Below, piece after piece: positions 3,950 through 20,219 of a stretch of DNA of 32,729 nucleotides. The position numbers and the translations under genes are program-made. Source of the stretch: Pseudomonadota bacterium (GTDB taxonomy: Bacteria; Pseudomonadota; Alphaproteobacteria; Micropepsales; Micropepsaceae); NCBI GenBank assembly GCA_021804785.1, contig JAJZGY010000026.1:1-32729 (forward strand), read 5' to 3'. Positions within the stretch are counted from its first letter, which is position 1; every line of letters starts with the position of its first letter. A model generated the notes under the pieces. It was not told the origin of the DNA, ran no database searches, and saw only the letters and a program-made list of their open reading frames with translations.

Positions 3950-4724
3950 GCGCAAACGAAAACATCAGTGTTCGGAAGTTAGGCTGTTTTAGCCGGGCGC
4001 GCGCAAAGCGGGTCGGATCGAACAGAGCGCTTCATCTGACGGGACGCCTTGCTTGTCATATATGCGCCTTTGTTGGCCCAACTACAAGGGCCGCGACGCA
4101 CATTGCGGGAACTTACGCGCTAATTGCCACCAGGCCGCCAAATGAGCGGCTGTCACGCTTAATAGGTGCACATGGCCAGCCGTACCGTCTGCCGTGTTCA
4201 GACCTATCAGACTGGAAAGCGCAATCATCTCACACCCGAATGCCCGATCACGTGCAAGTCTGCCGAGCCACATGCCGCGCTGCTGCGCGGCTCGCACGAA
4301 CAAAGTCGATGATGTCGCGCTATCCGCTTCTTAAAACCAGGAACTGGATGATTATGACAAGCAACAGATCATCCTGTTTATAGTCGGCCGATAGCCGCGA
4401 CTGCTTGAGAAGCAGCGTTGGTGTATGCAGAGGAGTCTGGCGGGGACAGCATTGCAGTCAACGCCTTTGCCTCGGGCGTACCCGGAACGCATTCCAGAGG
4501 CCCGAATTCCACGCAACGCCCGGGAACGTGAAAATTGGAATATTGATAGGTGATTTCCGTGTCACGTACATGGCCTGCCAGTTGTCCACCCCAAGACTGC
4601 TCTCCACGCATTCGACGGTGCCACGATCGGCATCGTCTGCGAAGCGGGCCCGCAAGTGCGGCATTATCTCCAGGCTTTCCGCGGAAAGATGGCCGCCTCT
4701 CAAGGTGCAGATAAGGGCCAGTTG
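3950..4724. other. Gene-poor stretch between cspA and the TetR gene
   Basis: No confident gene. Two weak minus-strand candidates lie here: a 73-codon frame at 4082-4303 without ribosome site or recognised domain, and overlapping frames at 4378-4703 listed separately. I see no IS ends, tRNA or terminator. Confidence 0.35.
4378..4703 (-). pseudogene. Possible frameshifted small gene
   Basis: Two overlapping minus-strand frames each look coding-like over a different half. The first, from an ATG at 4703, reads plausibly through SSLGVDNWQAMYVTRKSP and IPIFTFPG, then loses coherence. The second continues sensibly with CVEFGPLECVPGTPEAKALT to a stop at 4378. A single frameshift near 4510-4530 would join them into about 105 residues. 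I recognise no family. It may be a decayed gene, a sequencing error, or coincidence. Confidence 0.2.
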
Positions 4725-5375
4725 TCAGCCTGTCACCAGGATTGCCGCGAGCGCGCCGGCGATGCTTTCAATCGTGCGTTCGCTTTTCCACATTGGGTGA
4801 TCGCGGGACGCATCTGCAAGTTCTCTTTCGCGCGCGGCGATAATGCCAGCCATTGCCCCGCCCATCAGCACAAGCCTCCGGTTGACCTGTCGGGACGGGA
4901 TATCGGCCAGTAGCGTTCTGATATGGTTTTGACAACGCAGGTAGCCCGAGTTCCAACGGCCCTCCAGCGCGTCCATGAAAAGTGGATAGTTCGTCAGCTG
5001 CAGCATCACGATGAAGCGATTGTAGCAATCACTCCATGGCGGGTTTGACGGTAGAAGCGAAGAGCGTACCAGCACGGCCGTGATCTCATCCAGCGCAGTC
5101 GGACCGCCATGTGCTTCTATTTCGTTCAGCATCCGGTTGCGCAACTCATCGATCAACTTGGCGCCATGCACCACGACCGCACGGACGAGCGCTTCCTTCG
5201 ACCCGAAGTGATACCCCACCGTCGCGTGGTTCTTTTGTCCCGCCGCTTCTGCAATTTGACGCAAGGTCACCCCGTCGACACCGCGTTCCGCGAATAATGC
5301 AACGGCCACGGCTTTAAGATTTTCGGCGGCCTCGGGACCGCTATCCGTATCATCAAATGGCATGTCGATATTCAT
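4725..5375 (-). CDS. TetR-family transcriptional regulator, divergent to the kinase-ACAD operon
   Basis: 216-aa TetR regulator. The N-terminal helix-turn-helix includes RGVDGVTLRQIAEAAGQKN (about 31-49) and the recognition helix end YHFGSKEALV (about 55-64). The C-terminal ligand domain is helical and typical in length. I chose the ATG at 5375: it gives a normal TetR length, while the longer frame to 5507 would run through the divergent promoter and into the kinase gene. Its ribosome site is weak. Divergence from an acyl-CoA operon, with two inverted repeats between, suggests it represses that operon and itself and is released by a pathway acyl-CoA or acid; this is inference. Confidence 0.88.
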   Translation of the reverse strand: MNIDMPFDDTDSGPEAAENLKAVAVALFAERGVDGVTLRQIAEAAGQKNHATVGYHFGSKEALVRAVVVHGAKLIDELRNRMLNEIEAHGGPTALDEITAVLVRSSLLPSNPPWSDCYNRFIVMLQLTNYPLFMDALEGRWNSGYLRCQNHIRTLLADIPSRQVNRRLVLMGGAMAGIIAARERELADASRDHPMWKSERTIESIAGALAAILVTG

Positions 5376-5378
5376 AGC

Positions 5379-5398
5379 TTGACCGGCTTTCAGGTCAA
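5379..5398. promoter_or_regulatory. Inverted repeat TTGACC-N8-GGTCAA in the TetR/kinase intergenic region
   Basis: TTGACC at 5379-5384 and GGTCAA at 5393-5398 are perfect 6-bp arms with an 8-nt spacer, a few bases from the TetR start. TTGACC, followed after 17 nt by CATTAT (5402-5407), could also be a weak -35/-10 pair for the plus operon. A regulator here would block both directions. Operator function is inferred. Confidence 0.4.
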
Positions 5399-5403
5399 AT
5401 GCA

Positions 5404-5419
5404 TTATCCATTTGGATAA
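5404..5419. promoter_or_regulatory. Candidate TetR operator TTATCCA-TT-TGGATAA
   Basis: Perfect 7-bp arms separated by 2 nt, midway between the TetR start (5375) and the kinase start (5438). Its size and near-palindromic form suit a TetR dimer. It overlaps the proposed -10 element of the plus-strand operon, so binding would block polymerase. It is the best operator candidate in the window. Confidence 0.55.
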
Positions 5420-5437
5420 ATCTGGGAGAGCGCAGCC

Positions 5438-6466
5438 TTGGAGACAGGCGTTGATCTGGCAGCGCTCGCAACATGGATGGACCAGCGGGGCCTTGGCTCC
5501 GGCCCACTGGAGCGCGTCCAGCGCCTGGCTGGTGGGACGCAAAACATCCTGCTGCGCTTTACTCGCTCAGGCAGAGACTATGTCCTGCGTCACCCGCCAT
5601 CGCATCTACGGAGCAACTCCAACGAAACGATGCGCCGCGAAGCCCGAGTCCTTGCGGCGCTGGCGGGCAGCGACGTACCTCATCCGGCCCTGATTGCCGC
5701 CTGCCCTGATCCGAGCGTGTTAGGCGCTGCATTCTACCTGATGGAACCCATTGAAGGTTTCAACGCGAGCCAGGGTTTGCCGGCACTTCATGCTGGAGAT
5801 GCCGCCATGCGGCATCGAATGGGATTGGCGATGATCGACGCCATCGCCGCGCTCAGCCAGGTAAATTATCGTGCCGTCGGGCTAGAAGACTTCGGCAAAC
5901 TGGACAATTGGCTGGAAAGACAAGTTGGCCGCTGGGCAGCGCACCTGGAGAGCTATAACGATATGCCAGGTTGGACCGGCCCGCATTCAATTCCCGGCGT
6001 CGCGCGGGTGGCGAGTTGGCTTAACGATCATCGCCCCAAACAGCTGCAGCCTGGCATCATCCATGGCGATTTCCATTTCGCCAACGTCCTGTTCCGCCAC
6101 GACAGCGGCGATCTTGCAGCTGTCGTCGACTGGGAACTGTGCACGCTAGGGGATCCTCTGCTTGATCTCGGCTGGCTGGTCGCAACCTGGCCAGAGAAGG
6201 ATACACCGCACCCCACCGATGTTGCGATCACACCATGGGACGGTTTTGCCACGCCTGACGAGCTCGTGGCCCGATATGCCGCCCAGACCGGGCGTGACCT
6301 GGCCCACCTCGACTGGTTCGCAGTCCTGGCCTGCTACAAGCTCGGTATTATCCTCGAAGGCTCCCACGCGCGCGCTTGCGCCGGCAAGGCTCCGAAGGAA
6401 GTCGGCGATCGTCTGCATGCCCATACCATCCACTTGTTTGAACGCGCGCTGCGGCGCATAGACTGA
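5438..6466 (+). CDS. APH-type acyl-CoA kinase, LvaA/ACAD10-11 kinase-like
   Basis: 342-aa aminoglycoside-phosphotransferase-fold kinase. The catalytic loop is HGDFHFANVLF (209-219) with Asp211 as presumed base and Asn216 as a metal ligand; VVDWE (229-233) supplies the second metal ligand Asp231. The N-lobe has the GGTQNILLRF nucleotide segment (32-41). This subtype, next to an ACAD10/11-type dehydrogenase, is the bacterial counterpart of the kinase domain of mammalian ACAD10/ACAD11 and of LvaA. Those phosphorylate the hydroxyl of 4-hydroxyacyl-CoA rather than drugs. The start is TTG at 5438 with GGGAGAG about 8 nt upstream. It leads a four-gene operon, with 8 bp to the SDR. Antibiotic resistance is unlikely from context. 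The exact acyl substrate is unknown. Confidence 0.82.
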   Translation: METGVDLAALATWMDQRGLGSGPLERVQRLAGGTQNILLRFTRSGRDYVLRHPPSHLRSNSNETMRREARVLAALAGSDVPHPALIAACPDPSVLGAAFYLMEPIEGFNASQGLPALHAGDAAMRHRMGLAMIDAIAALSQVNYRAVGLEDFGKLDNWLERQVGRWAAHLESYNDMPGWTGPHSIPGVARVASWLNDHRPKQLQPGIIHGDFHFANVLFRHDSGDLAAVVDWELCTLGDPLLDLGWLVATWPEKDTPHPTDVAITPWDGFATPDELVARYAAQTGRDLAHLDWFAVLACYKLGIILEGSHARACAGKAPKEVGDRLHAHTIHLFERALRRID

Positions 6467-6474
6467 TAATCATC

Positions 6475-7212
6475 ATGCGCGACGACACGGACTTCAGTAG
6501 CAAGAGAGTTCTAGTGGTTGGTGGCTCGAGTGGAATCGGCAATGGCATCGCCCACGGCTTTCGCGAGCGCGGGGCGGAGGTCCATGTCTGGGGTACGCGC
6601 GCAGATCGTGCAGATTACGAGCCAGCCGAGGGATCGAACCTGTCGGGCCTCGGCTACACCTGTGTGGACGTAAGTGATCCTGACGCGATCGACCGCGCGC
6701 CCCTACCCTTCGGCCGACTTGATGTTCTCGTGCTTTGCCAGGGCATAGTGGTCTATGGGCGCGGCGAATTCGAGCGGACCGGCTGGGACCGGGTTATGGC
6801 TGTCAATCTCGACAGCCTGATGCACTGTGCCCGCAAGTTCAAGTTTCAATTACTCAAAACACACGGCAGCGTGATTGTCGTCAGCTCGGTTTCCGGTCTC
6901 AAGGCTAATATCGGTAATCCCGCCTACGCTGCCTCAAAGGCTGGCGCGATCAGCCTGACAAAGACGTTGGCACAGGCTTGGGCTCCAGAAGGTCTTCGCG
7001 TCAACGGCCTCGCACCGGGATTGGTCGATACCAAGCTGACCAAGGTCACCACCCAAAATCCGGACCGCGTCGCCGGAGCTCTTAGGAATATCCCACAGCG
7101 CCGCTTGGGATTGCCTGCAGACATGGCCGGAGCGGCTATCTTCCTCGCTTCTCCGCTCGCATCCTACATCACCGGCCATACACTGATTGTCGACGGCGGG
7201 CTCTCACTCTGA
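6475..7212 (+). CDS. Short-chain dehydrogenase/reductase (operon member, LvaD-like role proposed)
   Basis: 245-aa classical SDR with a Rossmann fold using NAD(P)H. The nucleotide loop is GGSSGIG (16-22); the active site is Asn111, Ser138, Tyr151 and Lys155 (YAASK), and PG at 181-182 precedes the substrate loop. The usual NNAG structural motif is replaced by LCQG (87-90). It starts 8 bp after the kinase stop and ends 13 bp before the dehydrogenase, so it is surely co-transcribed. By analogy with LvaD of the levulinate pathway it could interconvert a 4-oxo and a 4-hydroxyacyl-CoA, but a later 3-hydroxyacyl-CoA step is equally compatible with the sequence. Confidence 0.85.
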   Translation: MRDDTDFSSKRVLVVGGSSGIGNGIAHGFRERGAEVHVWGTRADRADYEPAEGSNLSGLGYTCVDVSDPDAIDRAPLPFGRLDVLVLCQGIVVYGRGEFERTGWDRVMAVNLDSLMHCARKFKFQLLKTHGSVIVVSSVSGLKANIGNPAYAASKAGAISLTKTLAQAWAPEGLRVNGLAPGLVDTKLTKVTTQNPDRVAGALRNIPQRRLGLPADMAGAAIFLASPLASYITGHTLIVDGGLSL

Positions 7213-7225
7213 AAGGTAACACCAG

Positions 7226-8452
7226 ATGGAATTCGAACACAGTGACAAGGTAAAAGGCCTGCTAGCTGCAGTGGAAGCCTTCATGGACGAACACGTCTAT
7301 CCCAATGAGCAATCCTACAACGATTGGGTGAACAATCCGGGTAATCTTTGGCAAGAATGGCCCAAAATGGAGGACCTCAAGGACAAGGCTCGCGCCAAAG
7401 GCTTGTGGAATTTGTTCCTACCTCATGAATATGGGAAGTTTTCCCCAGGCCTGACCAACCTGGAATATGCGCCGCTGGCCGAGATTATGGGGCGGGTGCC
7501 GTTCGCGAGCCAAATCTTCAACTGCTCAGCTCCTGATACCGGTAACATGGAAGTTCTCGCCAAGTATGGCAGCCCGGAGCAGCAAGAACGTTGGCTGAAG
7601 CCCCTGCTCGACGGGAAAATCCGTTCGGCATACGTTATGACCGAGCCACAAGTTGCCTCTTCGGATGCGACCAACCTCGAACTGTCCATCACGCCGCATG
7701 GCGATCACTATGTTCTCAACGGTCGCAAATGGTGGATTTCAAACGCTATGCATCCACGTTGCAAGATCTGGATCGTGATGGGCAAGACCGATTTCAACGC
7801 GGCCCGCCACGCGCAGCACTCACAGATCCTGGTCGAACCCAATACGCCGGGCATCACGATCGTGCGCCATCTCACGGTGTTTGGTTCGCACAACTCGCCC
7901 GGTGGAGAGAGCGAGTTGCGCTTCGAGAACGTCCGCGTGCCCAAGGAAAATATGATTCTTGGACCTGGCCGCGGATTCGAAATAGCGCAGGGCCGTCTTG
8001 GACCGGGCCGGATTCACCACTGCATGCGCTCGATCGGGCAAGCCCAGCGGGCACTCGAAATCATGGCTCGCAGGGCAGACAGTCGAGTCGCCTTCGGCAA
8101 GAAGCTGGCCGACCAGTCTTCGATACGACAGGATGTGGCGAAGAGCTTCTGCGAGGTGGAAATGGCGCGCCTGCTAACACTCAAGGCTGCGGATGCGATG
8201 GACCGCTACGGCAACAAGGCCGCAAAGGATCTTATCGCCGCAATCAAAGTCGTTGCCCCGCGCATGGCACAGACCGTATGCGACCGAGCGATCCAGGTTC
8301 ATGGCGGCATGGGCGTATCCGACGACACCCCGATCGCACGTTTCTTCACGCTAAACCGCTTCGTGCGCATAGCCGACGGTCCAGACGAGGTTCACATGAG
8401 CCAGCTTGGCAAACAGAAGATCAGGGAATACGTGGCGTCAAACCGACCTTGA
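7226..8452 (+). CDS. Acyl-CoA dehydrogenase, ACAD10/11 (LvaC-like) type
   Basis: 408-aa flavoprotein of the acyl-CoA dehydrogenase superfamily. Visible landmarks are [15 protein letters not shown] (136-150) at the flavin site, WWISNAMHP (169-177), the RVAFGKKL helix (287-294), [13 protein letters not shown] (357-369), and [10 protein letters not shown] (381-390). In the last motif Asp384 stands where ordinary acyl-CoA dehydrogenases carry the catalytic Glu. This ending and the partner kinase place it with ACAD10/ACAD11 and LvaC, where the enzyme removes the 4-phosphate from 4-phosphoacyl-CoA and yields an unsaturated or rearranged acyl-CoA. It starts 13 bp after the SDR. Simple alpha,beta-dehydrogenation cannot be excluded. 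Confidence 0.87.
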
Positions 8453-8477
8453 CGGCGAAGTCAACAGGAGAACAGAC

Positions 8478-10025
8478 ATGAGCTGGATCAAGAGCGGCAA
8501 CCGCACAGTGACCGTCGCAGAATTCGAGCAGCGTGCCCGCCGTGCCGCGAGTGTGCTGCAGGACTTCGGCCTCGAGAAAGGCGATGGTGTGGCGCTTTAT
8601 CTGCGCAACGACCTTGCCTATTTTGAAGCGGTATTTGGTGCGGGAATGCTCGGCATCTACCCGGTACCAGTGAATTGGCATTACACCCCTGATGAGGCGA
8701 ATTATCTACTCATCGACAGCGGGGTGAAGCTGTTGCTCATCCACGCCGACCTGATGCCTCCGATCGCGTCAGCAGTGCCCAAGGGACTGCCAGTGGTAGT
8801 GGTCGATACACCTGATGAGGTGCGGACGGCCTATGATCTTGACGCCGTAGCGTTAGCGTCAGACCTGCCACGATGGCAGGCGTTGCTTGACAGAGCCATG
8901 CCCTATTCTGGTACCCCCGAAGCGCCTCCCAGTTCGGTGATCTATACCTCAGGTACCACCGGTCGACCCAAGGGGGTCAAACGTTCCGCATTCACGGCTG
9001 CGCAGACAGAGGCCGTCAATTTTATGCTTGGCTGGTCCTACGGCTATTCTGACGTGCTGGAGGGAAAGCGCGAGCCCTCGACCATTACCACCGCGGTGAT
9101 TGGTCCGGTCTACCATTCGGCACCCAATGCCCACTCTGCCTTTTCGATCCGCCTGGGTGTCAATGTGGTGATCGAACCACGCTTCGATGCCGAAGGATTG
9201 CTTGCGCTCATCGAACGCGAGCGGATCACGCACCTCAACATGGTGCCGATCATGTTCAACCGCCTGCTGCGTCTTCCGGACAAGATCAAACACAGATACG
9301 ACCTTTCCAGCCTGGAATTCGTCACCCACGCTGCTGCACCTTGTCCACCACCGGTCAAGCGAGCGATGATCGAATGGTGGGGGCCGGTGATCTGGGAGTA
9401 TTATGGCTCCACCGAGATGGGCAACGTCACCTGCCTGTCGAGTGAGGAGTGGCTGGCGCATCCTGGCTCGGTCGGCAAGGTCATGCCCGGCATCACCTTG
9501 CGCGTGGTTGACGAAGCAGGCAACGACGTCGCGCCAGGCGAAGTTGGCGAAGTGATTGGCAAGGGCCGCCACGGTGCCGACTTTACCTATCAGAATTCGC
9601 CTGAAAAGCGCGCCTCAATGGAAAAGTACGGGCTTATCACTCCCGGCGACGTTGGCTATTTTGACGCTGATGGCTTTCTTTATCTGTGCGATCGGAAAAA
9701 TGACATGGTGATCTCAGGTGGGGCCAATATCTACCCGGCCGAGATTGAAGCCGAGCTTCATAAATTACCGGGCGTAGCCGACTGCGCTGTGTTTGGCATT
9801 CCCGACGAAGAATTTGGCGAAAGTGTAATGGCCGTCGTCCAGCCTATGCCCGGTGTGACCCTACGCGCAGACGACCTGCGCGCGGACCTACGCCGGACGC
9901 TCACCGCATATAAGGTGCCGCGGCGGATCGAGTTCGCAGAGAGCCTACCGCGTGAGGACTCGGGCAAGATCTTCAAGCGTAAACTGCGTGAGCCTTTCTG
10001 GGCAGGACGCGACCGCGTGATCTGA
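8478..10025 (+). CDS. Acyl-CoA synthetase (AMP-forming), last gene of the kinase-ACAD operon
   Basis: 515-aa ANL-superfamily ligase that activates a carboxylic acid through an acyl-AMP to acyl-CoA. Motifs: P-loop YTSGTTGRPKG (156-166), YYGSTE (308-313), the GDVGYFDADG segment (390-399), DRKNDM hinge (405-410), and catalytic Lys497 in SGKIFK. I chose the ATG at 8478, which has an AGGAG about 8 nt upstream; the in-frame ATG at 8406 would overlap the dehydrogenase. It is somewhat short at the N-terminus compared with fatty acyl-CoA synthetases, beginning almost at the substrate domain. In the lva model it is the LvaE-like entry enzyme; the substrate is not readable by eye. Confidence 0.9.
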   Translation: MSWIKSGNRTVTVAEFEQRARRAASVLQDFGLEKGDGVALYLRNDLAYFEAVFGAGMLGIYPVPVNWHYTPDEANYLLIDSGVKLLLIHADLMPPIASAVPKGLPVVVVDTPDEVRTAYDLDAVALASDLPRWQALLDRAMPYSGTPEAPPSSVIYTSGTTGRPKGVKRSAFTAAQTEAVNFMLGWSYGYSDVLEGKREPSTITTAVIGPVYHSAPNAHSAFSIRLGVNVVIEPRFDAEGLLALIERERITHLNMVPIMFNRLLRLPDKIKHRYDLSSLEFVTHAAAPCPPPVKRAMIEWWGPVIWEYYGSTEMGNVTCLSSEEWLAHPGSVGKVMPGITLRVVDEAGNDVAPGEVGEVIGKGRHGADFTYQNSPEKRASMEKYGLITPGDVGYFDADGFLYLCDRKNDMVISGGANIYPAEIEAELHKLPGVADCAVFGIPDEEFGESVMAVVQPMPGVTLRADDLRADLRRTLTAYKVPRRIEFAESLPREDSGKIFKRKLREPFWAGRDRVI

Positions 10026-10105
10026 AAGTCATGAGCGAGCGTGTGCTTCCTGGGCGCAGGACATCTCGTAAGCGGCGATGGTCATTTTTGCATTCCGGTG
10101 ATTGA

Positions 10106-11794
10106 TCACCCGAGAACACCGCGCCCGGGTGCTGACCGACCGATAGGGTCAATCAGCACGCCTGGGTTGAGAATTGCGCCCGGATCAAGGACCGCCTTGG
10201 CTGCCGCGAGGGCTTGGCGGAAGAGGGGAGATGATTGCCTCTCGTAGCCACTGCGATGGTCACGACCAACAGCGTGATGGTGGGTAACAGTACCGCCAAG
10301 CCCTACCACAATCTCATTGGTCGCCAGCTTGATCTGCCGCCACTTCGCAAGGGACGAGTATAGATCACCGGTTGTGGTACCAAGAGCAGAGTAGGAAAAA
10401 TAGGGCGCGGGTCCATCCGGATAAATATGTGTGAAGCGGCAAGAAACGACCGCATCATGACCGCATATTTCGCGAATAACAGTCTGTGTTCTCTCACGCA
10501 CGCCATCATAGAGGGTTTCGAAGCGATCCCACGTAATCGCGGTCTCGAAGGTGTCAGTGATGACGCCGAGCGCGACCAAAAGATCACGATAATACGGCAT
10601 GCGGATGAAGGCGTTTCGCCACTGTCCGGCCGCACCCTGCCGATGCTCTCCTGCCCGGTTGCCTGGTGCAAGGGATCTCGCCACAGCTTCACTGTCGTAG
10701 GTCCCTTGGTGATCTGCCACCAGTTCAAGCCCACGCTCCATCCAGGCGTTGAGTGGATGATCCGCGGATTCAAATCCGAGCACCAGTATCGCCTTTGTGC
10801 CATCTCCAACATGGTTGTTACGCGCTTCAACCGGGTCAAGAAGACGACAATTCGTTGGGAAGAGGCCCGATTGAGACAGTGCCCGCACTGCGGCAACGGC
10901 AGCGGACATGCTCGGGAAGCTGATCGACGCAGAGGCCTGATGCATTGGCCTGTCCTGCAGCCGCATCCAGGCCTCAGTGATAATCCCTAGCGTGCCCTCA
11001 GAGCCAATCATCATGCGGTCAGGTGACGGTCCGGCGCCGGAACCGGGGAGCCGCCGCGTTTCGAGGATGCCCGCGGGAGTAACCGAGCGAGTTGCCTCAA
11101 CAAAATCATCGATGTGTGTATAGAGCGATGCGTAATGCCCGCCGCTACGGGTGGCAATCCAGCCACCCAATGTCGACAGCTGCAGGCTCTGAGGGAAGTG
11201 CCGCAAGGTCAAAGCGTGGGGCTTCAACTGGGACTCAAGCTCTGGCCCGAGCGCCCCTGCCTGAATGCGTGCCGCGCGACTGCTCCGATCGATCTCCAGC
11301 ACTTTCCAGAGATATTGCAGATCAACGGACACCACCCCAGCATAGCCGTCGCCTACCGCAGGCTCGACACCCCCGCACACACTCGAGCCTCCGCCAAACG
11401 GGATCACCGCAACGTTAGCACCGGATGCCCACTCAAGGATGGCAGCAACATCCTCTTCGGACTTGGGAAACGCCACCCAATCGGGTGGACTGGAAACCGC
11501 GCGCATAAACATGCGCACGATATCGGCGAAAGATTTTCCTAGACTGTGCACCAGGCGATCATAGGGCGTCGCGGACATCATCGGTGCAAGGGCAGCTGGC
11601 ACGGCGATACGAGGCGGTGGCAGTTCGAAATCGCGAATCTGGGGTACGGAAACTTCCACCGGGGCAGCTCCGCCAAGTCGCCGCGCCGAACCCTGCACCC
11701 TGGCGATTTCCTCTGCAGTTAGATCTTCGTCAGCATAACCCCAGCCATAGAACCGAAGCTTGCCCCGGCGTGAAAATGTTGCTGTCTCGCTCAT
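10106..11794 (-). CDS. FAD-binding oxidase/dehydrogenase, alkyl-DHAP synthase-like
   Basis: 562-aa VAO/PCMH-type flavoprotein related to alkyldihydroxyacetonephosphate synthase and to 2-hydroxyacid dehydrogenases. FAD-binding segments are IPFGGGSSVCGG (131-142), LSTLGGWIATRSGG (206-219) and IGSEGTLGI (263-271). A YFSYS element (465-469) and a triple-His motif HHHAVGRDH (505-513) match AGPS-type active sites, and LDPGAILNPG closes the fold. The ATG at 11794 has GGAAG a few bases upstream and gives the usual length. It converges on the CoA-synthetase gene and lies 90 bp downstream of a TetR gene on the same strand. Ether-lipid synthesis needs a partner acyltransferase, which is absent, so oxidation of a hydroxy acid in the catabolic island is more likely (inference). 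Confidence 0.82.
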   Translation of the reverse strand: MSETATFSRRGKLRFYGWGYADEDLTAEEIARVQGSARRLGGAAPVEVSVPQIRDFELPPPRIAVPAALAPMMSATPYDRLVHSLGKSFADIVRMFMRAVSSPPDWVAFPKSEEDVAAILEWASGANVAVIPFGGGSSVCGGVEPAVGDGYAGVVSVDLQYLWKVLEIDRSSRAARIQAGALGPELESQLKPHALTLRHFPQSLQLSTLGGWIATRSGGHYASLYTHIDDFVEATRSVTPAGILETRRLPGSGAGPSPDRMMIGSEGTLGIITEAWMRLQDRPMHQASASISFPSMSAAVAAVRALSQSGLFPTNCRLLDPVEARNNHVGDGTKAILVLGFESADHPLNAWMERGLELVADHQGTYDSEAVARSLAPGNRAGEHRQGAAGQWRNAFIRMPYYRDLLVALGVITDTFETAITWDRFETLYDGVRERTQTVIREICGHDAVVSCRFTHIYPDGPAPYFSYSALGTTTGDLYSSLAKWRQIKLATNEIVVGLGGTVTHHHAVGRDHRSGYERQSSPLFRQALAAAKAVLDPGAILNPGVLIDPIGRSAPGRGVLG

Positions 11795-11884
11795 GGCTTC
11801 CAATCTCGTGCCCGACCCGGCGCAGAGCCTGACCCCATGGGCCCGGTTCGGCAAGCCGGAACGAGAATCTTAGAGCGGCATTTT

Positions 11885-12556
11885 CTAGCTGCGCCGCCCA
11901 TCTTTCCCGGGCACCGGTACCGGTGTGCCATTGCGGGCTAGGGTTTGCCGCAGGCTGTCCATCACCGCAGCCAGCAGCGGCTCGAATGAAGTCTCCGGAT
12001 CCACGAGCCGCTGGGTTGAAATCCCGATCTGAAGGCTGCCGATCAGGGTTGCGACGGCATCTATATCTACTTCCCCGCGAATACTTCCTCCGGCTTGGCC
12101 CTTCTGGATCAGATGTGCCAGCACCGCCTTTACACGCTCGTGTTCTCCGGCGAAGGCGGAACGCAAATCCGTATCATCGGCAACCGACGCGGCCAGCAGC
12201 TTGAAATAGGTCTGCAGGCGCTCATTGTGGAACGCCTCCCGCAAATAAAGATCCGTCCAGGACAAGATGGCCTCCAGCCCGGGCAGCGTTTCGATGCCAC
12301 GGGCTGCAATCATCTCCTGCATTTCGCCATGCAGCCGTTCGATCATCGCGTCGATGAGCCCGCGCTTGGACCCGAACCGCTGGGTGACGAGTCCTCGGCT
12401 GTAGCCAGACTTCTCGCCAATGGCCTCAAAGGTAAGTGCGCCGACGCCGCTCTCCGCGACGATGGCAATCGCTGCATCTACGAGCGCCCGCTCCGACTGC
12501 CTCCGGCGCTCATTCTGGGTCAGCCCGGTCGAGCCGGGAGGAGCTTGCGAATCCAC
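11885..12556 (-). CDS. TetR-family transcriptional regulator upstream of the FAD oxidase
   Basis: 223-aa TetR regulator. The helix-turn-helix spans roughly residues 18-64, with GVGALTFEAIGEKSGYSR and the recognition helix ending RFGSKRGLID. The C-terminal domain is helical. I chose the GTG at 12556 with CGGAG about 9 nt upstream, because it gives a standard length; the longer frame to 12682 has no ribosome site and would add an atypical Pro/Arg-rich leader. It is probably co-transcribed with the FAD oxidase 90 bp downstream. No clear palindromic operator is visible upstream. Its target is inferred only from position. Confidence 0.86.
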   Translation of the reverse strand: MDSQAPPGSTGLTQNERRRQSERALVDAAIAIVAESGVGALTFEAIGEKSGYSRGLVTQRFGSKRGLIDAMIERLHGEMQEMIAARGIETLPGLEAILSWTDLYLREAFHNERLQTYFKLLAASVADDTDLRSAFAGEHERVKAVLAHLIQKGQAGGSIRGEVDIDAVATLIGSLQIGISTQRLVDPETSFEPLLAAVMDSLRQTLARNGTPVPVPGKDGRRS

Positions 12557-12685
12557 TACTGAACACTCCGCTGAAGGACAGATGAGCGGCCTCAACAATC
12601 TCCCGAGATCAGGACCGCGTACCAGGCTTGGTGAAAATGGTATATCGCCTCTCAGTCTATCGTCGGCGGGAACTGCCAGCAAAGG
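12557..12685. other. Upstream region of the TetR gene
   Basis: No gene supported. The long plus-strand frame at 12420-13058 crosses the TetR gene antisense and looks like random Arg/Pro/Ser-rich sequence. The TetR promoter should be here but no -35/-10 pair stands out. Confidence 0.35.
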
Positions 12686-12754
12686 GCACGGGCCTGAAGC
12701 CCTTCAGGGCAGGCGACGTGGCGGACCGCAACCGGTCCGCTCCGTCCCCCGTGC
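12686..12754. ncRNA. Candidate structured RNA element (three-way junction)
   Basis: Three perfect stems fit into 69 nt. P1 pairs GCACGGG (12686-12692) with CCCGTGC (12748-12754). P2 pairs CCTGAA (12693-12698) with TTCAGG (12703-12708) around a GCCC loop, directly stacked on P1. P3 pairs GCGGACCG (12721-12728) with CGGTCCGC (12733-12740) around a CAAC loop, and can gain one G-T pair at 12720/12741. The region has no credible gene on either strand. The fold would form from either strand, so orientation is unknown. I could not match it to a named family; high GC content makes chance folding a real alternative. Confidence 0.35.
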
Positions 12755-13051
12755 GCGGCTGTCAGGCCGGGCCACACCTGATCCTGGGGGCAAAATCCTA
12801 CCGGCTCCAAAAGGCACGCTAGCCAGGGGACAAAGGCGACTGCAGTGGAAAACCTGTTTGCGGAGGAGCGCAGGGCCACCCCCATATGGGACGCCGGCCG
12901 CGTCCAGCCACTGTCCCCGTCCGCTAGATTGTCCGCTGGCCGATCCCGTCAGACTCAGTCTTCTTCAGCGCAGGAACCGACATGGCGGCAACACAGAATA
13001 CCAACGTCCACTTTGCACCCCCACAGATAGACAATCCGCGCTCAGGGTCCT
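12755..13051. other. GC-rich gene-free stretch next to the candidate RNA
   Basis: No supportable gene. It contains AGCCAGGGGAC at about 12821, which resembles part of a B12-box, a small TGCG-GAGGAG-CGCA hairpin near 12860, and the palindrome CCCATATGGG near 12880. None of these completes a known riboswitch. It ends at the stop of the ThDP enzyme gene. Both neighbouring genes are on the minus strand. Confidence 0.35.
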
Positions 13052-14755
13052 TCAGTAACCAGCATCGCCGTACCACGAGGCAAACTCATCAAACCCGGGC
13101 ACCTCTGTCGCATTGGCACGGGCATCAATCGCGACCTGAACAACGGCTGGGCGGCCACTTGCCAATGCCCTTTTAATCGCCGGTGCGACATCTTCAGCAC
13201 GATCGACGTACTCGCCGTAGGCACCAAACCCCTCAGCAATACGATCAAGACGAAGCTGCTCTCCCCAATGGGCTTCGGTCTCAGGTGACTGCGGACCAAA
13301 AACTGTCTTGTACACCGTAACTTCCAGGCCGAAGGCGTAGTCACAGCCGACAATGCAGACAATCGGAAGCTCTTTGCGCACTGCAGTTTCAAGCTCGGAA
13401 ATATGAAACAGGAAGGACGAATCGCCGGTGATCAGCACCACGCGGCGGTTGTCGCCAACAGCCAACTGCGCCCCGATCGCGTGTGGCAGACCAGTACCAA
13501 GATGACCAAAGTTTTGGCACCAGAGCACGTCGCGCGGCGCGATCTGACCATAAGCCCCAGTGAAGATGCTAACAGCCCCTCCATCGCGCACAATGACTGC
13601 ATCCTCAGGAAGCTCCCGCGTTGCCTCCACAACAAAGCGCGCGGGATGCACAGGTGTCGAGGTCTTCGGCACTGCTGCCAGCATCTGGGCCTTGAGCGCA
13701 GCAGACTCCTCCCCCCATGCCTCAAGCTGCCCAACGGCCTCATGCCCTCGGGGCCCAAGTGCCGCGACAAGCTGTGGGGTTACATCGCGCAAATCGCCTA
13801 CAAGTGGCACATCAATGGCACGATTGACCCCAATCGCCAGAGGATCTCGCTCGATGTAGATCCATTTGCGATCGGTCTTGCCTTTGGCCCAATGCCGCCC
13901 GACCCCGTAGTGCAGCGGTTCACCGATCTCTGTTCCAATCGCTATCACAAGATCTGCTGCCGCCACAATTTGCGTGCCAACAGGGGAGGCGTAGGGAAAT
14001 GTCTTTTGCTCGAGACCCGGCAGTACTGCAGCTCCGCCCGGGGTCTGGAGGATTGGGCAATTGAGCGCGCGTGCAAGTTCGGCCACCATGGCGTGGGCAC
14101 GCGACACAAAAACGCCCTGTCCGACGAGAAGAACAGGCAATTCTGCTTCTTTGATCAGCCGTACCGCATCGGCGATCCGCCCTGGATCAGCGGCCTGATG
14201 CGTCAAACGATATCTTTCCGGCGGCGCAACTGGCGGAAGCTCAAGCTGGGCCTGCCCCATGTTCATGGGGTATTCGATATAAACGGGCCCTGGAGTTCCG
14301 CTCAGCGCCCGGCGAAAGGCTTCATGGACGATTTCGTCGGTCTGCTCGGCGTACTCGATCACGCCAACATATTTCATCGCCGCTTCGAAGTACGCAGGCT
14401 GGGGCGTATACTGAAAGCGACCGCGCCGAACCCGCTGATCATAAAGGCGCGGTCGCTGGCCGGCGATGAAGAGGGTCGGAACGTTCTCCTTCGCTGCGCA
14501 AATCGCAGCAGCGGCAAGATTGGCAACACCTGGTCCCTGATTCCCAACGATCACGCCCGGCCGGCCGGTCATGCGCCACAGTCCGTCCGCCATGAAGGCT
14601 CCAGCCTGCTCGTGATGTGGTGCAATCACGCGCCAGCCGCGCGCTTCGGCGGCAATAAACATCGCTACAAAACTTGGATCCGGAATGCCAAAGAGCGTTT
14701 TGATTCCCTCAGCTTCCATCAACTCGAGCAAGCGGTCGTGCACATAGATGGCCAA
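13052..14755 (-). CDS. ThDP-dependent enzyme of the acetolactate synthase/2-hydroxyacyl-CoA lyase superfamily
   Basis: 567-aa three-domain thiamine diphosphate enzyme. The Pyr domain has the ylid-activating Glu49 in APHHEQAGAFMADG (45-58), and the central domain follows from about 190. The PP domain has GDSSFLFHISELETAVR (444-460) but ends its cofactor motif in VGCDYAFG (469-476), where the family normally has NN. It therefore carries Cys471-Asp472 in place of the usual Asn pair. The superfamily makes or breaks C-C bonds next to a carbonyl or decarboxylates 2-oxoacids. No AHAS regulatory subunit is nearby, and the operon is acyl-CoA catabolic, so biosynthetic AHAS is unlikely. It is the last gene of the six-gene operon, 28 bp after the ferredoxin. 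Confidence 0.88.
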   Translation of the reverse strand: MAIYVHDRLLELMEAEGIKTLFGIPDPSFVAMFIAAEARGWRVIAPHHEQAGAFMADGLWRMTGRPGVIVGNQGPGVANLAAAAICAAKENVPTLFIAGQRPRLYDQRVRRGRFQYTPQPAYFEAAMKYVGVIEYAEQTDEIVHEAFRRALSGTPGPVYIEYPMNMGQAQLELPPVAPPERYRLTHQAADPGRIADAVRLIKEAELPVLLVGQGVFVSRAHAMVAELARALNCPILQTPGGAAVLPGLEQKTFPYASPVGTQIVAAADLVIAIGTEIGEPLHYGVGRHWAKGKTDRKWIYIERDPLAIGVNRAIDVPLVGDLRDVTPQLVAALGPRGHEAVGQLEAWGEESAALKAQMLAAVPKTSTPVHPARFVVEATRELPEDAVIVRDGGAVSIFTGAYGQIAPRDVLWCQNFGHLGTGLPHAIGAQLAVGDNRRVVLITGDSSFLFHISELETAVRKELPIVCIVGCDYAFGLEVTVYKTVFGPQSPETEAHWGEQLRLDRIAEGFGAYGEYVDRAEDVAPAIKRALASGRPAVVQVAIDARANATEVPGFDEFASWYGDAGY

Positions 14756-14783
14756 GTCAGGATCCCCTCAATGCGTGTGAAAC

Positions 14784-15125
14784 TCAGAATTTGCGCGGAA
14801 ACATGAACTCGCTGATTTGCTTCTGCTCATAGAACCCGGCGAAGTCGTAGGGCTCTGTGGCCATGATGCCCTGACTGGCGCACACAGCATAACAGTTGTT
14901 GCAACTCATACAGCCGTTTGCATCGCCTTTAAGGCGCGCTTTGAGATTCTCCTTCGGCCCAAAAAGCTCAAGGATATTGGCTGGACAGACGACAACACAT
15001 AACTTGCAGCCATCGCATTTGTCGAGATCAATGGTTACCCGATGATAAATCGCTTCGCACGGATCATCCCAGATAGGAAGATGGTCTGGCGGGACGGACG
15101 CTTTTCTCACAGTTGCGTCGCTCAT
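14784..15125 (-). CDS. 2x[4Fe-4S] ferredoxin-like protein
   Basis: 113-aa electron carrier with two cluster-binding sets: Cys37, 40, 43, 47 (CDGCKLCVVVCP) and Cys72, 75, 78, 82 (CMSCNNCYAVCA). The sets are separated by about 25 residues, and both flanks extend beyond the ferredoxin core. The ATG at 15125 has an AGGAGA about 8 nt upstream; the frame open to 15170 is inside the nitroreductase gene. It sits between the nitroreductase (11 bp) and the ThDP enzyme (28 bp), so it probably shuttles electrons to or from one of them. It resembles small iron-sulfur subunits of 2-oxoacid:ferredoxin oxidoreductases, but no other such subunit is present. Confidence 0.9.
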   Translation of the reverse strand: MSDATVRKASVPPDHLPIWDDPCEAIYHRVTIDLDKCDGCKLCVVVCPANILELFGPKENLKARLKGDANGCMSCNNCYAVCASQGIMATEPYDFAGFYEQKQISEFMFPRKF

Positions 15126-15136
15126 GGCATTGTCTC

Positions 15137-15952
15137 CTAATACAGAATCTCTTTGTTCCCATCTTCCCACCAGACAATCTGGTGGGTCTGCCGGGAGATT
15201 GCCTGCTGTGTGGGATTTCCGATCGGATAGCCGACGGAAATCGCTTCGGCGATTTCGAATGGCGCCTGCACGCCAAGCTTTTCAACCAGAGCGGGATTGC
15301 TGCTCAGCAATTTGGAAAACCCGATCCAGCACGTACCCAGTCCCAGGCTCTGCGCGGCAAGCACAATGTTGGTTCCAACAACGCCTATATCGACTTCCGG
15401 AACACCAACGCCGCGCTTATCCATCAGGATCAGGATTACAGTTGGCGCCCTGTGGAACACGGCAAAACGTCCATTTGCGATCGATTTGATCGCTGTCATG
15501 GGAACAGGGTGAAATGAATTGGGGTTGTCACGATTAAGCTTTTGCGTGTTTTCCATAATTGCAGCACGCTGCTCGCTACCCGGCGGATAGTTTGTGTAAT
15601 CAATGGTAGCGGTCATATTTTTGCATACCGCGACACAGTACTGCTCCATCTCCGCAATCATGGCTTTGTCCCGTATGACGACAAATGACCAAGGTTGATT
15701 GTTTCCCTGTGACGGCGCGAAGCGACCCATCTCAAGGATACGGCGGATCATGTGGGCAGGGACTTGTCTTCCCTTGAACTTGCGGATGCTACGGCGGGTG
15801 AGGATGGCGTGTTCCACGTCGTTCCACTCCGCTCCGGGCTCTATATCCTGAATGGCTGTGCGACGGCGCGCTTTGCGACTTTCTTTGGCAGCGGCCGCGT
15901 CCAGTTCGCATTCTAATTCTTCGAGGTCGTGATTACTCACAATGTCGTCCAT
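15137..15952 (-). CDS. Nitroreductase-fold flavoprotein
   Basis: 271-aa FMN protein of the nitroreductase superfamily. Landmarks are RRSIRKFKGRQVP (53-65), the FMN-binding segment APSQGNNQPW (79-88), and GTNIVLAAQSLGLGTCWIG (193-211). A charged N-terminal extension of about 45 residues (DLEELECELDAAAAKESRKARR) precedes the fold and could be a partner-binding helix. I chose the ATG at 15952 with CGGAG about 9 nt upstream; the longer frame overlaps the ligase gene. Members reduce nitro groups, quinones or enones, or act as dehalogenases. The adjacent ferredoxin suggests a ferredoxin-linked reduction, perhaps of a pathway intermediate. Position is fourth of six. Confidence 0.87.
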   Translation of the reverse strand: MDDIVSNHDLEELECELDAAAAKESRKARRRTAIQDIEPGAEWNDVEHAILTRRSIRKFKGRQVPAHMIRRILEMGRFAPSQGNNQPWSFVVIRDKAMIAEMEQYCVAVCKNMTATIDYTNYPPGSEQRAAIMENTQKLNRDNPNSFHPVPMTAIKSIANGRFAVFHRAPTVILILMDKRGVGVPEVDIGVVGTNIVLAAQSLGLGTCWIGFSKLLSSNPALVEKLGVQAPFEIAEAISVGYPIGNPTQQAISRQTHQIVWWEDGNKEILY

Positions 15953-15983
15953 AATTTCACTCCGCTTGTTGCTGCCAGGCCAT

Positions 15984-17675
15984 CTACGTCCGCACCTTTT
16001 GACGCTGTGCCTGTGCGAGCACGTCCGGTGGTGCCATGTTGCCTGAGCGGAACTCTGCGGGAGCAATGCGTTCCGACCGAGTACCACGCCAGGCATAGAC
16101 TTCAGCCCCTTCGGTACACAGCGCCTCAACTAGGAAGCGGTCCTGCGGCTTCTCCGATGCGGTCTTGGGGATTTCGGTCACGACCTGCAGGTAGGTCGGC
16201 ACGAAGTTGGGCTCCAGCTTTGAACGACAGTGAGCGAAGATCGCTTCGGGCTCAAAGCCGTCGCGGCTGGGTACAACAGCGGCAACGACATCACGCTCTC
16301 CTGGCGCTCCGTTGGCCGACGGGATGCCGTAGACGTACGCATCGTCGACCCTCGGATGTTCGGCGAGGACACCCTCTACAAAGCCTGGACTAATGAAGTC
16401 CCCGTTGTGACGGATCCCACCACCCTTCCGATAATCGAAGAAGAGCCAGCCGTCCGCGTCACGATGACAGATATCACCGCTGCGCAACCACCCCCCCAGG
16501 GTCTTTTTTTGCGATGCCGAGGGGTTGTTGAAGTAATTGACCGACGCCGCTTCACCGGTCACGGCCCGGCTGATCAGCTCACCCTGCACGTGGGGAGGAC
16601 ACTCATTACCATCCTCATCCACAATCTTTATTTCAAGATTTGGCGGAGGCTTTCCAAAGCTTCCCACCGGACCAAGGCCTATTGGCTTGAATGCCATGCC
16701 CCCTTCGATTGCACCATAGGCTTCAAGAATTTTGAGATTGAAGCGATTCTCGAAGCTTTCCCATATAGCAAATGGCATTCCCGAACTGAGCACGAAGCGG
16801 ACCGGATTGTCGGCATCATTGTCCCTCAGCGGCTCGCTATAAATCGCCGTAGCCATACCACCCAGCAGATTAAAGAAGGTGCAGCCATATTCGCGGGTGA
16901 TATCCCAGAGCCGGGACTTAGTGAATTTACGGCTGAATACGGCACGCTGACCGAGACGGAGCGCTGAGGCCAGCGTCATGAGCTGGGCGTTGCCATGGGT
17001 AAGCGATAGACCCGTATAGGGCCGTTCATCTGCACCAATTCCGAGCATGGAACAAAGCAAGGTGGCGGCGCCATACCGCGAATTGGGAAAGACAACGCCC
17101 TTGGGATCGCCCGTGGTCCCCGAGGTGTAAATGATTTGCAGCGGATCTTCAGCATTACGCAGGCGCAGATCGACAGAGGATTCTGGTCGTTCGAGCATCT
17201 CGCGCAGATCTGTTGCCTTTGCCTCACCTGCCCTCAAATCCGTTTCACCGCTCTGTAGCAGCCAGATCCACTCCAAGGCAGGCACCTGGGATCGAATCTC
17301 CTCAACCTGGGCAATCGAGTAATCGGCGCACACTATCCCACGGCAGCCGGAATTGTTGAGAGTATAGGCCAGCTTGTTGCCCCGGGTGCGTGGGTCGATC
17401 GGCACAAACACCAAGCCACTCAGCGACGCGGCAATCATGAGCTCTATGAATTCGGGATGATTGCGGATCAGGATCCCGAAGCGGTCGCCATAATTCATGC
17501 CGCGACCAATCAGACCCGCGGCCAGCCGGTTTGCGTTGCTCCACAATTGTGCGTAAGTACGGATCTCGTCCTCGCGTTCACCTCCACCTTCGAAGGTGAC
17601 GACATCCAGGTCGGGCATCGTCTCAGCGCGTGCCGCTATCAGGTCTGCCAGGATCATTTCATTGAGTGCGCGCAT
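15984..17675 (-). CDS. Acyl-CoA ligase (AMP-forming) of the six-gene operon
   Basis: 563-aa ANL-superfamily ligase. The P-loop is YTSGTTGDPKG (183-193); the A5 motif is YGAIEGG (320-326), lacking the usual Thr of YGxTE; GDICHRDADGW (400-410) follows. The A10 region is TASEKPQ with candidate Lys509. About 50 extra C-terminal residues follow the A10 region. The ATG at 17675 is preceded by a strong AGGGGGGG run and lies 8 bp after the thiolase stop. It is distinct from the ligase in the plus-strand operon, implying a second acid or a second CoA-activation step. It resembles the crotonobetaine/carnitine-CoA ligase-like group, with low certainty about substrate. Confidence 0.88.
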   Translation of the reverse strand: MRALNEMILADLIAARAETMPDLDVVTFEGGGEREDEIRTYAQLWSNANRLAAGLIGRGMNYGDRFGILIRNHPEFIELMIAASLSGLVFVPIDPRTRGNKLAYTLNNSGCRGIVCADYSIAQVEEIRSQVPALEWIWLLQSGETDLRAGEAKATDLREMLERPESSVDLRLRNAEDPLQIIYTSGTTGDPKGVVFPNSRYGAATLLCSMLGIGADERPYTGLSLTHGNAQLMTLASALRLGQRAVFSRKFTKSRLWDITREYGCTFFNLLGGMATAIYSEPLRDNDADNPVRFVLSSGMPFAIWESFENRFNLKILEAYGAIEGGMAFKPIGLGPVGSFGKPPPNLEIKIVDEDGNECPPHVQGELISRAVTGEAASVNYFNNPSASQKKTLGGWLRSGDICHRDADGWLFFDYRKGGGIRHNGDFISPGFVEGVLAEHPRVDDAYVYGIPSANGAPGERDVVAAVVPSRDGFEPEAIFAHCRSKLEPNFVPTYLQVVTEIPKTASEKPQDRFLVEALCTEGAEVYAWRGTRSERIAPAEFRSGNMAPPDVLAQAQRQKVRT

Positions 17676-17683
17676 GTCCCCCC

Positions 17684-18919: not shown

Positions 18920-18952
18920 CTTTCACCCTCCCTTGGGGCAGTTTGGCGTTTT

Positions 18953-20158: not shown

Positions 20159-20219
20159 TGCGCGCTCCTGCCCCTTGACCCCTGACATAGGCACGCCGCC
20201 TGGCCAGGATCAGTTGTAC

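Follow-up and report, generated by a model that had tools for sequence, protein, structure and literature searches.

Here we describe a four-gene operon in a stretch of 32,729 nucleotides, hereafter the window, from contig JAJZGY010000026.1 of assembly GCA_021804785.1, an alphaproteobacterium of the Micropepsaceae. The operon encodes an APH-fold kinase, a short-chain dehydrogenase/reductase (SDR), an acyl-CoA dehydrogenase (ACAD) and an AMP-forming acyl-CoA synthetase, and adjoins a divergent gene for a TetR-family regulator. Ordinary beta-oxidation copes poorly with 4-hydroxy acids, and a phosphate bypass has been demonstrated, for levulinate in bacteria and for ACAD10/11 in mammals (2024-2025). 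The operon is a well-supported candidate for such a phosphorylate-and-eliminate route; what is new here is an ACAD of the ACAD10/11 clade combined with a kinase of a third lineage, together with its own TetR and a probable operator. We consider it reasonably probable that the operon, under TetR control, serves the catabolism of a carboxylic acid oxygenated at C4, with the following steps in the order that we infer. The ligase would make the acyl-CoA, the SDR would reduce the 4-oxoacyl-CoA and thereby set the C4 oxygen to the hydroxyl (this direction being the presumed one), the kinase would phosphorylate the 4-hydroxyl using ATP, and the ACAD would remove the phosphate by an FAD-assisted internal redox reaction to give a 2-enoyl-CoA for beta-oxidation. 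The core of the proposal, phosphorylate-and-eliminate chemistry on a 4-hydroxyacyl-CoA, is likely with good confidence. It is built on directly observed features, namely the gene order, the protein families, five ACAD residues, a conserved palindrome and the recurrent pairing of the kinase with ACADs that carry a phosphate clamp.

The original prediction had called the dehydrogenase ACAD10/11-type, and this proved correct. In the comparison with the PDB, its best match is human ACAD11 (426 bits; 51.6% identity over 395 residues), followed by mouse ACAD11 (420 bits) and the homologue 4hr3 (417 bits), and the first ACAD outside this group scores 143 bits, some 280 below human ACAD11. In a tree of 66 rows, left after removal of near-identical rows, the window ACAD falls with human ACAD11 into an ACAD10/11 clade of 29 rows (Shimodaira-Hasegawa-like approximate likelihood ratio test, SH-aLRT, 98), separate from the LvaC rows of lva-type operons, which group with that of the Mycobacterium locus L036 (5 rows, SH-aLRT 100; compared loci carry L numbers, contigs of the same assembly C numbers and genomes G numbers). 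In mouse ACAD11, R626, H634 and R637 are reported to clamp the 4-phosphate, R631 to orient the acyl-CoA and D753 to act as the base; replacement of R626, H634 or R637 by Ala or Leu was the most disruptive, and the phospho-intermediate accumulated (PMC12440821). All five counterparts are identical in the aligned window ACAD and sit in a 12-residue stretch and an ADGPDEVH motif, both identical to ACAD11 (the catalytic-Asp position reads Asn in the 8v3v chain); the 10-residue ACAD motif quoted in the original prediction is also present. Since these five residues are kept in an ACAD of the ACAD10/11 clade, phosphorylation by the kinase followed by phosphate elimination is the best reading, and the earlier proposal that the kinase and the dehydrogenase would handle a 4-hydroxyacyl-CoA via a phosphate is supported, at the level of sequence, by the kept clamp and catalytic Asp. 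The genome yields 27 ACAD matches, 12 of which were inspected residue by residue. The whole clamp with the Asp was found in three of the 12, the window ACAD, one on C91 (58% identical to it) and one on C64 (38%); the other nine have no clamp and carry at the base position Asp (two, L058 and L065), Glu (four) or Ala (one), or fall outside the alignment there (two). The second ACAD of the window (18953-20194) has no clamp, yet an Asp aligns at the base position. Elsewhere in the ACAD10/11 clade, the ACADs of L103, L104 and L105 (genomes G005, G009 and G130) form one branch in which the catalytic Asp is kept and FQYAM[SMT] replaces HHCMR, so that H634 and R637 of the clamp are missing; judging by these residues, they may catalyse a different reaction.

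The kinase belongs to a lineage of its own. A phylogeny of kinase and dehydrogenase against LvaA, LvaC and ACAD10/11 had been set beforehand as a check, and its outcome was divided: the ACAD lies inside the ACAD10/11 clade, and the kinase lies outside both the LvaA and the ACAD11-kinase clades. All three trees (kinase, ACAD and SDR) come from quick searches, supported by SH-aLRT values only, with no bootstrap, and rows more than 85-88% identical were dropped beforehand (kinases from 139 to 98, SDRs from 70 to 55). Among the 98 kinases, group A holds LvaA, the other kinases of DUF6285 loci and the kinase of L005 from the same genome (18 rows, SH-aLRT 99); group B holds ACAD11, 3dxp, the C91 kinase of the same genome and most sphingomonad paralogues (33 rows, SH-aLRT 99); and group C holds the window kinase (44 rows, SH-aLRT 98). 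The 9o56, L107, L108 and L005 kinases sit on long branches and are not firmly placed. Group C occurs in Sphingomonadales, Pseudomonas, Caulobacteraceae, plasmids of Rhodobacterales and Burkholderiales, Myxococcota, Acidimicrobiia, Nocardia and Mycobacterium, and the nearest named relatives of the window kinase (78-84% identity) come from Novosphingobium, Sphingorhabdus, Sphingomonadaceae and one "Proteobacteria" metagenome-assembled genome. Within the family, the clade-C kinase is a sporadic trait, present in 8 of 96 genomes (the order-level search gave the same 96) and also on plasmids. No description of this lineage was found in the literature searched, which left most subscription journals uncovered.

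By sequence, the window kinase scores 150 bits against 9o56 and 145 bits against 3dxp, at 31-33% identity, and 93 bits against the ACAD11 kinase (27% identity to that of the mouse). It retains HGD, DWE, the Arg-Glu pair of helix C and RQ(V). The distance between RQ(V) and the SIPG-like motif is 27-28 residues in all 44 group-C rows, 20-21 in 35 B-labelled rows and 9o56, and 18-24 in 18 A rows, which amounts to an insertion of 6-7 residues in group C; for this comparison the clade letters were set by the best BLAST query, and the 35 B rows include L107 and L108, both unplaced in the tree and both without the insertion. In the ACAD11 model, R176, the Arg of RQV, lies in a long region that touches CoA and that often sets substrate choice in the family (PMC12440821). 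Because of this position just behind the CoA-contacting RQV, the insertion is a plausible mark of another substrate. An AlphaFold2 model of the kinase, built from 34 group-C sequences, reached a mean predicted local distance difference test score of 93.4. Its nearest solved fold is 3dxp (Z 30.8, root mean square deviation 2.7, 317 residues aligned) and the second is the 25-hydroxy steroid kinase (Z 26.3, deviation 3.6, 325 aligned, 22% identity); these ranks come from the best 50 rows, among which ACAD11 (8v3u/8v3v) does not appear, a circumstance that says nothing about the fold.

The association of clade-C kinases with clamp-type ACADs recurs across loci. Gene calls based on GC frame often favoured antisense open reading frames (ORFs) in GC-rich loci, and the locus counts therefore rest on similarity to known proteins over all ORFs. 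Of 59 loci compared, two (L093 and L148) yielded no kinase at 50% identity or more and were excluded, which left 57, comprising 44 genome loci and 13 loci from plasmids or relatives. Some of these are not independent: L033 resembles L050, and Nocardia contributes 12. Of the 57 kinases, 26 (18/44 and 8/13, respectively) have a clamp-type ACAD no more than 3 kb away, and 23 (16/44 and 7/13) have an SDR at least 50% identical to that of the window within 1.5 kb. The ACADs paired with clade-C kinases fall into three tree clades, or four if L046/L147 are counted apart. ACAD10/11-type partners are found in the window, pJE1, Sulfitobacter, pBB1 and others; GGGRIHHAMR-type partners in Pseudomonas, Caulobacter, Massilia, Variovorax and G144; L046/L147-type partners in Mycolicibacterium and Rhodococcus; and an LvaC-type partner in Mycobacterium L036 alone, where the kinase and ACAD ORFs overlap by 4 bp. 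Some clade-C kinases adjoin ACADs only 32-37% identical to that of the window, and in L027 the motif reads HHAQR and the ACAD gene is convergent to the kinase. The kinase and ACAD halves thus seem interchangeable, and one kinase lineage beside several ACAD lineages is what would be expected if a phosphoacyl-CoA passes between independent enzymes. L093, on plasmid pNIN3 of Sphingobium sp. JS3065, has at 9001-10918 an ACAD of the ACAD10/11 type together with an SDR from the subfamily of the window SDR; the annotated phosphotransferase next to them measures only 393 bp and lies on the other strand, apparently a remnant.

The features of the operon are listed in Table 1. All four genes are read from the plus strand, each in frame from start to stop, with intergenic gaps of 8, 13 and 25 bp; the gene set and the 8-25 bp gaps given in the original prediction are confirmed, as are the kinase motifs HGDFHFAN and VVDWE. 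The kinase starts at TTG 5438, preceded by GGGAGA, the ligase at ATG 8478 rather than at TTG 8406 of a longer ORF, and the TetR gene probably at ATG 5375, within an ORF that extends to 5507. In L011, L012, L013, L022 and L037, kinase, SDR and ACAD are likewise grouped with a ligase 78-89% identical to that of the window, and the arrangement is therefore neither chance nor an artefact of the assembly (3.29 Mb in 171 contigs, 96% complete).

Table 1. Features of the operon and its control region (positions in the window).
Feature	Position	Strand	Basis
APH-fold kinase of clade C, predicted 4-hydroxyacyl-CoA kinase	5438-6466	+	PF01636 138.6 bits; 98-kinase tree; 6-7-residue insertion; AlphaFold2 model
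SDR, predicted 4-oxoacyl-CoA reductase (or 4-hydroxy oxidoreductase)	6475-7212	+	PF13561 173 bits; 17-SDR clade apart from LvaD; role by analogy with LvaD
ACAD10/11-clade ACAD, predicted 4-phosphoacyl-CoA phosphate-eliminating enzyme	7226-8452	+	PF00441 134 bits; five ACAD11 residues; tree
AMP-forming acyl-CoA synthetase (PRK12406 subfamily), predicted CoA thioester maker	8478-10025	+	PF00501 223 bits; NCBIfam NF009071 719.5 bits
Divergent TetR-family regulator	4725-5375	-	PF00440 45 bits; same position in 7/7 sister loci
Palindrome TTATCCATTTGGATAA, probable TetR operator	5404-5419	no strand	Same gap in the window and 7/7 sister loci

The divergent TetR gene stands at the matching position in all seven sister loci (L009-L013, L022 and L037; 50-89% identity), and the gap separating the TetR and kinase genes contains the pattern TTATCCAnnTGGATAA both in the window and in each of the seven. 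This pattern has a single place in the assembly at up to one mismatch, and a control pattern has none; at up to two mismatches the window contains two matches, against 0.05 expected, the second at 15417-15432. Palindrome and divergent gene together point to a local repressor of this operon, which would bind there, and TTATCCATTTGGATAA is its probable operator. Downstream of the operon, the minus strand (10106-20194) carries genes for an FAD-linked oxidase, a TetR regulator, a thiamine pyrophosphate enzyme, a nitroreductase, a CoA ligase, a thiolase and an ACAD; in L037, the FAD oxidase (90%) and the TetR (88%) of this run likewise adjoin the module.

The SDR falls into a clade of 17 rows (SH-aLRT 100) apart from LvaD in the 55-SDR tree, and the ligase clears the curated NCBIfam cut-off of PRK12406 (719.5 against 701 bits). 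That the SDR is a dedicated enzyme travelling only with this kinase was ruled out by an independent SDR search.

Several observations weigh against the proposed pathway. Thirty-one of the 57 clade-C kinases, including all 12 of Nocardia, have no clamp-type ACAD within 3 kb, although some contigs end early. In 11 genomes among these 31, the best ACAD match elsewhere is 48-61% identical to that of the window, and the 12 best ACAD places in these genomes comprise eight with an intact clamp (in eight genomes), three (L103-L105) that carry RLGPGRFQYAM, without H634 and R637, and one (L108) with Tyr at H634. Clamp ACADs are not alone in having an Asp aligned at the base position, since L058, L065 and the second ACAD of the window have one too; the clamp, not the Asp, is therefore the telling feature. 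The Sulfitobacter locus L091 has a divergent TetR of 47% identity and no such palindrome. The SDR subfamily mostly occurs without the kinase: it was found at 16 places in 15 of the 96 family genomes, three of them beside a group-C kinase (these counts are lower bounds, since in many genomes no more than 28 candidates were scored). Contig C38 of the same genome (L155, 6596-8459) carries a 79% identical SDR paralogue beside a zinc alcohol dehydrogenase, which shares 82% identity with its counterpart downstream of the L013 module. The paralogue and the mostly kinase-free subfamily weaken the claim of a dedicated 4-oxo reductase. Many relatives, L009 included, have a ligase of 34-40% identity instead, or none was found.

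Sister loci offer clues to the substrate. In the first group, that of the seven loci sharing the palindrome, a zinc alcohol dehydrogenase lies downstream in six (the contig of L010 ends early) and a PF04909 amidohydrolase is present in four (L009, L011, L012 and L022), as it is in L016. In the second sphingomonad group, a pyrroloquinoline quinone (PQQ) alcohol dehydrogenase directly follows the ligase in five of seven loci (L018, L023, L028, L030 and L032), with none at threshold in L024 and L031 being cut. The kinases of pJE1 and of the Caulobacter, Massilia and Rhodococcus ZPP plasmids likewise have annotated amidohydrolases in their vicinity. The only NCBIfam match of the L011 amidohydrolase is a sugar lactonase, at 89.6 bits against a cut-off of 400, and the window contains neither an alcohol dehydrogenase of these kinds nor a PF04909 amidohydrolase. 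With their genes for alcohol dehydrogenases and lactonase-like proteins, the sister loci give a hint that the substrate may be a gamma-lactone or a 1,4-oxygenated acid. A sensible pathway for gamma-lactones or 1,4-oxygenated compounds would begin with oxidation of an alcohol and opening of a lactone, continue with activation by CoA and end in the phosphorylation and elimination steps. The substrate is probably not, or not only, levulinate, and gamma-lactone-derived or branched 4-hydroxy acids are candidates. The plasmid hosts gave no substrate; a search for pJE1 with Sphingomonas found no literature, and the papers listed for JS3065 or Sphingobium were judged off-topic by title. In the second sphingomonad group, L018, L023, L024, L031 and L032 have, judging by cluster membership, a CofG/CofH-like radical SAM gene upstream, and four of these five also have a gene for an F420-dependent NADP oxidoreductase (Pfam was run on L032 only).

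The Pseudomonas lva operon (LvaABCDE) matches that of the window in its four enzyme classes and in the predicted chemistry, and the HCMR motif occurs also in the LvaC of lva-type operons. This label is used here for a gene order (kinase, DUF6285, ACAD, SDR, ligase) with a divergent gene of about 650 residues, not for a strain name; such operons lie in several Pseudomonas genomes (L096 and L097, with L101 alike). The window could thus carry a true levulinate operon with its genes in a different order, for which levulinate would be the natural substrate and LvaB would act in trans or be dispensable; a P. citronellolis lva cluster has been published without lvaB (PMC6692424), and this genome has two genes of DUF6285, the LvaB family, elsewhere. 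We nevertheless regard this as improbable. Kinase, ACAD and SDR lie outside the LvaA, LvaC and LvaD clades, with identities of 25%, 34% and 33% to the lva-type proteins, and the ligase is 29% (28.6%) identical to LvaE, although known LvaE variants differ as well (PMC6692424). A TetR stands in place of the sigma54-type LvaR, and the two DUF6285 genes, on C150 (L071) and C8 (L069), each adjoin a group-A kinase. A levulinate operon by descent is ruled out by the three trees together with the low identities. The remark that the module lacks lvaB is accordingly true of the locus and not of the genome, and the suggestion of a streamlined levulinate system that had lost lvaB found no support. Among the 59 loci compared, of which 57 have a clade-C kinase, none gave a match to DUF6285, which was seen only beside kinases of the LvaA clade: the 17 tree rows from DUF6285 loci are all in clade A, though as these rows were found via DUF6285 it does not follow that the LvaA clade always has it, and L005, of clade A, comes from no DUF6285 locus. 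There are also LvaB-free precedents, the P. citronellolis cluster, of which only the ligase was tested (PMC6692424), and orthologues from B. pseudomallei, which replaced the ACAD10 domains in vitro with LvaB going unmentioned in that report (PMC11342911). For these reasons a missing LvaB is no novelty and gives no evidence of streamlining. The ACAD on C8, which adjoins a kinase-DUF6285 pair, has a Glu base and no phosphate clamp, and the DUF6285 kinases may, by these residues, serve other reactions. The LvaC of L097 (7810-8982) is 33% identical to human ACAD11 in our comparison, unlike the 62% and 56% given for LvaC against ACAD10 and ACAD11 (PMC11342911).

Mammalian ACAD10 and ACAD11 (PDB 8v3u, 8v3v and 2wbi) share a clade with the window ACAD, which is 52% identical to human ACAD11; in the window, however, kinase and ACAD are unfused with the SDR gene between them, and the kinase is of another clade and has the insertion. 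A split ACAD10/11-type pair is also present on C91 (L067; ACAD 1407-2729, kinase 4422-5513), whose clamp is intact and whose kinase, unlike that of the window, belongs to the ACAD11/3dxp clade, on the strand opposite to its ACAD and with another gene between; the two presumably work together. The 25-hydroxy steroid kinase of Sterolibacterium (9fsg, 9ft5) phosphorylates an alcohol with ATP en route to dehydration (PMC8449060). It shares the APH fold with the window kinase and acts on a free tertiary steroid alcohol. To our knowledge, it has no ACAD partner. Its rank as second-best solved fold, and the presence of clade-C kinases in large plasmid gene clusters with TonB receptors, carboxylases, P450 and several ACADs, would suit a kinase that acts on a steroid or terpenoid hydroxyl not borne by an acyl-CoA, with the ACAD serving another step. 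We give this a small probability, as the steroid kinase scores only 37 bits, far below 9o56, 3dxp and the ACAD11 kinase, RQV is kept, with the Arg that touches CoA in the ACAD11 model, and the neighbouring ACADs carry the phosphate clamp. A reading that overlaps with ours keeps the chemistry and takes a gamma-lactone, lactol or diol as the input, with the SDR oxidising or accessory rather than a 4-oxo reductase. It would account for the alcohol dehydrogenases and amidohydrolases of the sister loci, and for an SDR subfamily that is also encountered in the absence of this kinase, including next to the zinc alcohol dehydrogenase of C38; the window itself lacks such alcohol dehydrogenase and amidohydrolase genes, the amidohydrolase is far below the lactonase cut-off, and the lva pathway's own SDR, LvaD, reportedly reduces levulinyl-CoA (PMC6692424), so that we hold this reading to be unlikely, if worth keeping in mind. 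The family name of PF01636 and a match to NF033068 might suggest an aminoglycoside-resistance kinase placed by chance beside beta-oxidation genes. The kinase, however, is far under the cut-offs of all four named NCBIfam families that it matches, the best being this one (32.9 bits against 205 for APH(3')), and it recurs beside ACAD and SDR in many loci; the idea has next to no probability.

Under the reading preferred here, phosphorylation of a 4-hydroxyacyl-CoA followed by elimination of the phosphate, the operon indicates that a third kinase lineage exists, recognisable by a structural feature of its own, and that kinase and ACAD lineages swap partners; an ACAD10/11-like kinase and ACAD are present in this genome as well. 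The operon also gives a clear route to new substrates for this chemistry, which the compact regulator and palindrome could report. Somewhat short of an even chance, in our estimate, is a broader, joint reading in which clade-C kinases would be a third class of 4-hydroxyacyl-CoA kinase, the extra loop next to the CoA-contacting helix would fit a different acyl group, such as that of 4-hydroxy acids that are branched, cyclic or derived from lactones and that stem from terpenoid-like or furan-like compounds, and a freely diffusing phosphoacyl-CoA would go to any available phosphate-clamp ACAD of three or four lineages. In that case, phosphorylate-and-eliminate chemistry would be a general bacterial means of C4-oxygen removal and not a levulinate speciality.

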